This document shows, in pieces, positions 4,833-51,460 of a stretch of 54,763 nt of DNA (its first letter is position 1; each line of letters starts with the position of its first letter). The notes beneath the pieces are model-generated. The model saw nothing but the letters and a program-made list of their open reading frames with translations, made no database searches and was not told where the DNA came from. The position numbers were made by a program, and so were the translations under genes. Where the stretch lies: NCBI GenBank assembly GCA_021163425.1, contig JAGGWS010000057.1:1-54763 (forward strand). The letters run 5' to 3'. This DNA comes from Candidatus Omnitrophota bacterium. Its GTDB lineage: Bacteria; Omnitrophota; Gorgyraeia; Duberdicusellales; Duberdicusellaceae.

Positions 4833-4936
4833 CTTCCTGTATTAATTTCTAATTTTTCAAGACTTAATTTTACCAAGTTCACATATGTAAAATAACCAAT
4901 AACCAGAATACTTCTGCAACATTTTTGTTTGAAACT

Positions 4937-5016
4937 ACGTGAAAACGTGAAAACGTAGAAACGTGTGAACGTATAAACGTGTGAACGTGTGAACGTGGGA
5001 ACGTATAAACGTGTGA
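4937..5016. repeat. 8-bp tandem repeat, 10 units (ACGTGAAA/ACGTGTGA/ACGTATAA variants)
   Basis: Directly read: acgtgaaa acgtgaaa acgtagaa acgtgtga acgtataa acgtgtga acgtgtga acgtggga acgtataa acgtgtga. Confidence 0.95.
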
Positions 5017-5051
5017 ACTTGACAAAATACTTTGAAAGTAAAATGTCAAGT
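5017..5051. repeat. 35-bp near-palindrome abutting the octamer array
   Basis: acttgaca aaa tacttt g aaagta aaa tgtcaagt; arms acttgaca/tgtcaagt and tacttt/aaagta are perfectly complementary. Confidence 0.9.
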
Positions 5052-5061
5052 TAGGCTTTAA

Positions 5062-5100
5062 GCTGGTTTTGTTACGAAGCCGACAGACGATAAAACCAGC
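5062..5100. repeat. 9-bp inverted repeat (gctggtttt ... aaaaccagc), 21-nt loop
   Basis: Perfect complementary arms at 5062-5070 and 5092-5100. Confidence 0.85.
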
Positions 5101-51217: not shown

Positions 51218-51271
51218 CTGTAGAGCAGCTCATAGGGATTACTCTTGCAGAGTAGTTCATAGTTGATAGTA
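51218..51271. repeat. degenerate 27-bp direct duplication
   Basis: ctgtagagcagctcatagggattactc / ttgcagagtagttcatagttgatagta, 17 of 27 positions identical by eye. Confidence 0.5.
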
Positions 51272-51310
51272 ATACTTCTGCAACATTTTAGTTTGAAACT
51301 GAAATGTTGC
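51271..51310. repeat. intergenic palindromic module A (second copy of sequence at 4907-4936)
   Basis: aatacttctgcaacattttagtttgaaactgaaatgttgc; hairpin gcaacattt/aaatgttgc and agttt/aaact; copy at 4907 reads aatacttctgcaacatttttgtttgaaact. Confidence 0.9.
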
Positions 51311-51431
51311 ATAGGATTAGGAATTTTAGCCAGAGAGAAGGAACAAACCTTTAATAAATAAACCTTTAACCTAGAAATCAAATGTTAACAATTTTAATTG
51401 CTATCGCAATAAATTTTGTTATATTTTTCCC

Positions 51432-51460
51432 ACTTTGAAAGTAAAATGTCAAGTTACGAA
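51432..51460. repeat. intergenic module B (second copy of sequence at 5029-5053)
   Basis: actttgaaagtaaaatgtcaagtta identical in both copies, here followed by cgaaaccc. Confidence 0.9.

Follow-up and report, generated by a model that had tools for sequence, protein, structure and literature searches.

The two intergenic elements described here, copy 1 and copy 2, are with good probability mosaics of repeat modules, two of which, A and B, serve as non-autonomous, REP-like substrates for transposases of the RAYT type (Y1 HUH); that they spread by transposition is what we infer. A and B are likely to function as such substrates because arms of the A and B type flank RAYT-type genes in close relatives. 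Both elements lie in the window, a stretch of 54,763 nucleotides that is one contig of a 1.19-Mb Omnitrophota genome (G000; assembly 94% complete) and is 93% coding.

Two mosaic elements in one contig

A 30-mer of module A was detected at positions 4907-4936 and 51271-51300 and a 24-mer of module B at 5030-5053 and 51433-51456, all on the plus strand and both times with A ahead of B; for either module no such match is expected from shuffled windows. The original prediction, that both modules occur in both gaps in equal order and orientation, is thus borne out. Its description as two collinear copies holds for order and strand and fails for the modules themselves, which are not whole: copy 1 combines half of A with a whole B, and copy 2, in complementary fashion, a whole A with half of B.

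In copy 1, module A (4907..4936, plus strand) is a half palindrome that ends just beyond the dyad centre, its palindromic part (4915-4936) being TGCAACATTTTTGTTTGAAACT. An 8-bp (AACGTNNN)n minisatellite (4937..5018, plus strand) bridges the half-A and module B, here the whole 37-bp palindrome AACTTGACAAAATACTTTGAAAGTAAAATGTCAAGTT (5016..5052, plus strand), of which an orthologous copy is present at L213 in the sister species (G001). Downstream, 'gttacgaagcc..gacagacgataaa' had been listed as a third module; the segment in question (gttacgaagccgacagacgataaa, 5071..5094, plus strand) is no fixed module and belongs to an intergenic repeat of short period and degenerate sequence, which reads CGAAACCGATAGCCGAAGCCGACAGACGATAAA in the gap of the sister species. 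The junction between half-A and the (AACGTNNN)n array is also found at three further places (G000:C28:139, C28:869 and C20). The truncation of both half-A and half-B near the hairpin tip suggests hairpin processing, two junction types being too few as proof.

Copy 2 starts with a complete module A (51271..51311, plus strand; palindrome 51279-51311, TGCAACATTTTAGTTTGAAACTGAAATGTTGCA, 33 bp) and ends with the right half of module B alone (CTTTGAAAGTAAAATGTCAAGTT, 51433..51455, plus strand). Between them are module D (GGAATTTTAGCC...AAACCTTTAATAAATAAACCTTTAA..., 51318..51385, plus strand), which an alignment of 17 loci carrying C, drawn from two species, shows to be a conserved repeat spacer, and module C, the imperfect palindrome TAACAATTTTAATTGCTATCGCAATAAATTTTGTTATATTTTT (51386..51428, plus strand), with 8 copies in the own genome and 10 in the sister species. 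This intervening DNA had been regarded as unrelated, but D and C follow A in equal order in G000:C63 and at several loci of the sister species as well. Since the orders A-D-C and C-spacer-B are constant wherever the modules occur in the 17 aligned loci, copy 2 is a standard composite, and copy 1 is a different assembly. At the gap of copy 2 the contig of the sister species ends; assemblies often break at such repeats.

Sequence and folding of the modules

Module B is a 37-bp palindrome of the form AACTTGACA-AAA-TACTTT-G-AAAGTA-AAA-TGTCAAGTT. Complete A (TATGCAACA..TGTTGCATA) also comprises 37 bp, and in copy 2 it is perfect in register over 33 bp. One build is common to both modules: arm-ACA, 19 nt, TGT-arm. 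As had been predicted, A and B are palindromic about a TTTGAAA core and both recur throughout the genome. For B, the fetched loci of the own genome contain about 29 copies, 18 of them identical, arranged singly or as direct tandems of two to three. With its 37 bp, B falls within the REP size class of imperfect palindromes of 20-40 bp repeated between genes. A check for intergenic confinement, proposed along with the prediction, found the B clusters in gaps or at most overlapping gene ends. At L027 and at L028/L235 there is an overlap between B and the stop codon (TAA of TAACTTGACA) that closes the gene upstream of it. The exact B pattern had no match in a scan of a contig collection which may exclude the own and near genomes.

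As single strands, A and B fold far better than shuffled sequences, whichever of the two strands is taken (z from about -4.5 to -5.8), and the hairpin of module C reaches a z of -3.7; half-A does not stand out from its shuffles in this way. Among B copies picked by their outer arms alone, the inner stem is kept by compensatory changes at four pairs (counted from the 5' end, pairs 13-16: T-A/A-T, A-T/G-C, T-A/C-G/G-C and T-A/G-C, respectively), slid controls score lower, and the A/A internal loop mostly stays unpaired.

Association with a subfamily of Y1 HUH transposases

Relatives were searched for Y1 transposases. In G004 (WFRI01, isolate S014_49, Candidatus Omnitrophota) three B-like palindromes surround one transposase gene, with the arms AACTTGACA..TGTCAAGTT or close variants of them, and the same type of arms flanks the transposase gene at L151. 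The transposase genes of G002, G003 and G005 have A-like flanking palindromes; G002 also contains dispersed copies of A, so that for this module a cognate gene and dispersed palindromes are present in one genome. Ten proteins encoded by such palindrome-flanked genes align along their length and have in common the HUH motif, a YIHLNP-type motif and, at the C-terminus, a region resembling an HTH, with H65, H67 and Y124 invariant in the transposases. The Pfam model Y1_Tnp matches above its cut-off, the NCBIfam RAYT model below its own.

A scan of GTDB representatives delivered 56 relatives, 42 of them close and mostly from Omnitrophota. A strong palindrome of 31-45 bp was present in 39 of the 79 flanks of these 42 genes, which are related and thus not independent draws, and in none of 395 dinucleotide shuffles, 67 segments taken 1 kb off and 12 flanks of other Y1_Tnp genes. 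The arrangement ACA-N17..21-TGT occurs in 48 of 64 strong flank palindromes versus 6% expected for random palindromes, and the transposase subfamily bearing it extends from Omnitrophota to neighbouring phyla (WOR-3, Elusimicrobia). The B-arm genes L148-L151 group as one clade of the protein tree (support 100/100); A-type arms are distributed over at least two clades, and outside L148-L151 there is a single case of a B-type arm. Because a sequence search of the PDB with the family profile gave no match, a fold search was used. For the predicted structure of the B-type protein L148 (mean pLDDT 81), the best PDB match is 4er8, a RAYT bound to a REP hairpin (E 9.7e-6, TM 0.73 by target length). 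The proposed protein-binding array therefore stands in a narrow form, as predicted hairpins resembling a RAYT-type transposase substrate, and not in any wider sense. A DNA architecture that recurs and can be put to the test in this way ties the dispersed palindromes of an uncultured phylum to one particular subfamily of transposases, and ready pairs of substrate and enzyme are at hand for in vitro cleavage.

No A- or B-type transposase gene was found in G000 or in the sister G001 (assemblies 92-94% complete). An enzyme that could have spread the modules is therefore missing from both: unlike in a RAYT system, the dispersed palindromes have no cognate gene beside them in the genome, and in G000 the matching transposase appears to have been lost. 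The only gene that the search for a B-type transposase brought up in these two genomes is the C45 gene of G000, with 42% identity. This Y1 gene was rejected as the cognate of B, its palindrome being different and present at the C45 gene alone; a weak match on C20, considered as a transposase relic, was likewise rejected because it sits within an mnmG-like gene. The B-type gene of G004 is accompanied by one dispersed palindrome only and the C45 palindrome is confined to its own gene, hence such genes are not always spreaders.

We propose that A and B each form an imperfect single-stranded-DNA hairpin (arm-ACA, internal loop, inner stem, TGT-arm) and that the hairpins would have spread when a cognate transposase cleaved this folded strand and passed it on to new sites; the enzyme may since have been lost, may be absent from the assembly or may act from elsewhere. 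Half-deletions at the hairpin tip, growth of the minisatellite and co-duplication with D and C would afterwards have led to the mosaics. The cores would have been homogenised within the species and the arms retained, perhaps since the enzyme reads the arms.

Relation to known repeat systems

In several respects the modules resemble the REP/RAYT (TnpA-REP) systems, REPtrons and REPINs (PMC2817692, PMC3116915, PMC8266576): they are imperfect intergenic palindromes of 20-40 bp, single and in tandem, they flank a low-copy HUH Y1 transposase and form a hairpin with an internal loop, and the best fold match is 4er8. However, tandem pairs are here mostly direct and not inverted, and the B family has about 29 copies at the fetched loci, whereas REPs often exceed 100. 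The foot tag GT[AG]G/CGTC was found at 0 of 112 feet of transposase-flanking palindromes and at none of the A or B feet in the window. Because this tag is absent, A and B are no canonical REPs but an untagged variant.

The class that fits best is that of the TIRYT-type transposases, whose TIRs carry no tag and are self-complementary, with GGGGWSAS in many of the repeats (Di Nocera et al. 2013, PMC3733652; e.g. S. maltophilia ORF 1152). In both cases a longer, HTH-tailed Y1 HUH transposase is flanked by self-complementary repeats other than GTAG, and dispersed copies often stand in pairs or clusters. In contrast to many TIRYT repeats, the A- and B-type palindromes lack GGGGWSAS; moreover, throughout the subfamily, in Omnitrophota as in WOR-3 and Elusimicrobia, the single build arm-ACA, N19, TGT-arm recurs, and genomes without the cognate gene still retain copies. 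Inverted repeats of the GGGGTCAG type, as in TIRYTs, were observed at other Y1 transposases of the order (L109, L110 and L116).

Among the transposases themselves, TnpA-Y1 subclass 2.1 (Quentin et al. 2018, PMC6006769; Bertels group 1) is similar in its length of about 290-310 aa, in the NH[LIVY]H and YIHLNP motifs and in the C-terminal HTH, a likeness based on these traits and not on the profiles of that study. For subclass 2.1 no adjoining REP-like sequences were found (PMC6006769), whereas palindromes lie beside most members of the present subfamily, in which the F-Q position is F-C/S/Y. Untagged self-complementary repeats thus stand beside most members of an HTH-tailed TnpA-Y1 group resembling a subclass for which a large survey had none. 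A link between Omnitrophota and REPs was not found in the literature, the coverage of which was incomplete.

Bacterial interspersed mosaic elements and pneumococcal BOX-type elements are modular intergenic repeats in which the number and order of modules vary. The elements described here differ from these in their module architecture, and one of their modules is an 8-bp degenerate minisatellite.

Comparison with the sister species

B is found in both genomes at the rpsI-argC gap, at L022/L229, L008/L234 and L028/L235 and at the gene beside L089/L090. The prediction of a dispersed repeat family, to be given up if further copies or conservation in relatives were lacking, is confirmed by further copies across the genome and, because B also occupies the rpsI-argC gap of the sister, by conservation at an orthologous site. 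Copy numbers differ at L008/L234 (3 vs 2) and at L028/L235 (1 vs 2 tandem copies), and at L001/L237 B is present in G000 and absent from G001. Across seven paired orthologous copies, differences affect 2 of 126 positions in the arms and 31 of 133 in the cores. Most B cores in G000 belong to one variant, and nearly all are different in the sister species. The combination of fixed arms and species-specific cores at orthologous sites is concerted change (homogenisation), for which conversion, re-insertion or a recent burst may each be the source. Copies and their homogenisation can thereby be traced between two species without the cognate gene.

Orientation and alternative explanations

The orientation of the 24 B clusters, counted by hand from the AAAATAC strand with neighbours taken from plain ORF calls on the fetched loci, is co-directional with every known neighbour in 20 cases, opposite in 2 and mixed in 2 (sign test, p = 1.2e-4). 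Such a bias is compatible with strand-selective insertion and with selection at the RNA level alike, and because copies are so strongly co-oriented with transcription, they may have a side effect on RNA.

Somewhat unlikely, in our judgement, is the stronger claim that the palindromes are RNA hairpins used by the host at gene 3' ends or in leaders, where they stabilise or terminate mRNA under selection, their likeness to transposase substrates reflecting origin only. Besides the 20 co-directional versus 2 opposite clusters (p = 1.2e-4), the stable hairpin, the retention of B at several orthologous sites in two species and the stop-codon overlap at L027 and L028 speak for it. However, there is no U-tract directly 3' of B, the cores are species-specific with 1-3 copies at one site, certain copies are cut to halves, no Rfam match was obtained, and strand-selective HUH insertion at the replication fork could equally bias the orientation. 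The earlier suggestion of a structured RNA tolerating insertions between modules is not supported: A, B and C are independent units in various combinations, the same palindromes stand at transposase gene ends, and Rfam detected only two tRNAs in the window, neither element matching a curated covariance model. For genome annotation this is a warning: the intergenic mosaics, with which many contigs break off, are repeats and should not be taken for RNAs of the riboswitch kind.

Concerted change of the cores also allows another, unlikely explanation, by which the palindromes have been a self-renewing population since the loss of the transposase. Cores would be swapped in concert by site-to-site replacement, with hairpin repair or a heterologous HUH enzyme as the driving force, the outer arms being the recognised, frozen part and old sites persisting between species.

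Near-perfect dyads with a conserved outer 9-mer in intergenic locations could also be expected from operators of a dimeric host DNA-binding protein (a regulator or nucleoid protein) that were repeated by chance. This we regard as very improbable: the internal AAA/AAA mismatch, mostly kept in B, makes the site strand-asymmetric, which is not the way of a symmetric operator, neither tandem arrays of 1-3 nor sites at transposase gene ends are to be expected, and the neighbours (rpsI-argC, recO-recA, uvrB, tRNA) constitute no obvious regulon. Very improbable, too, is that the composites are MITEs derived from a DDE insertion sequence of the classical type, in which A and B would be the terminal inverted repeats, for although A and B enclose D and C in equal order in copy 2, A, C and B also occur solo or otherwise combined, A and B differ and are each self-complementary instead of forming an inverted pair, and the genes flanked by A or B in relatives, in a transposase search of the Y1 type, are Y1 HUH genes.

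Other intergenic features

Module C (51386-51428; 17 loci) contains a sigma-70-like TTGCTA-16-TATATT; the module is mostly co-directional with the next gene and is a possible mobile promoter. After copy 1, positions 5062-5100 hold a terminator-like inverted repeat (GCTGGTTTT ... AAAACCAGC, then CCATTTTT), the left arm of which is absent from the gap of the sister species. Arrays of (AACGTNNN)n were found in the window (4937-5018) and at L005, L006, L016, L025 and L226; under the unlikely explanation of a self-renewing population, they could be a side product of the hairpin processing that replaces the cores. Over 177 array units the ACGT part is kept at 98-99% per position, and the next three bases vary with about ten common triplets. 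The array pattern has 95+81 matches in the own genome and none in 20 relatives, the sister species included. Gaps of the genus (e.g. L002, L213 and L094) contain other degenerate short-period repeats, namely AATTTTC-, AACCAAT- and GACGATAGACGAAACCGATAG-like runs.
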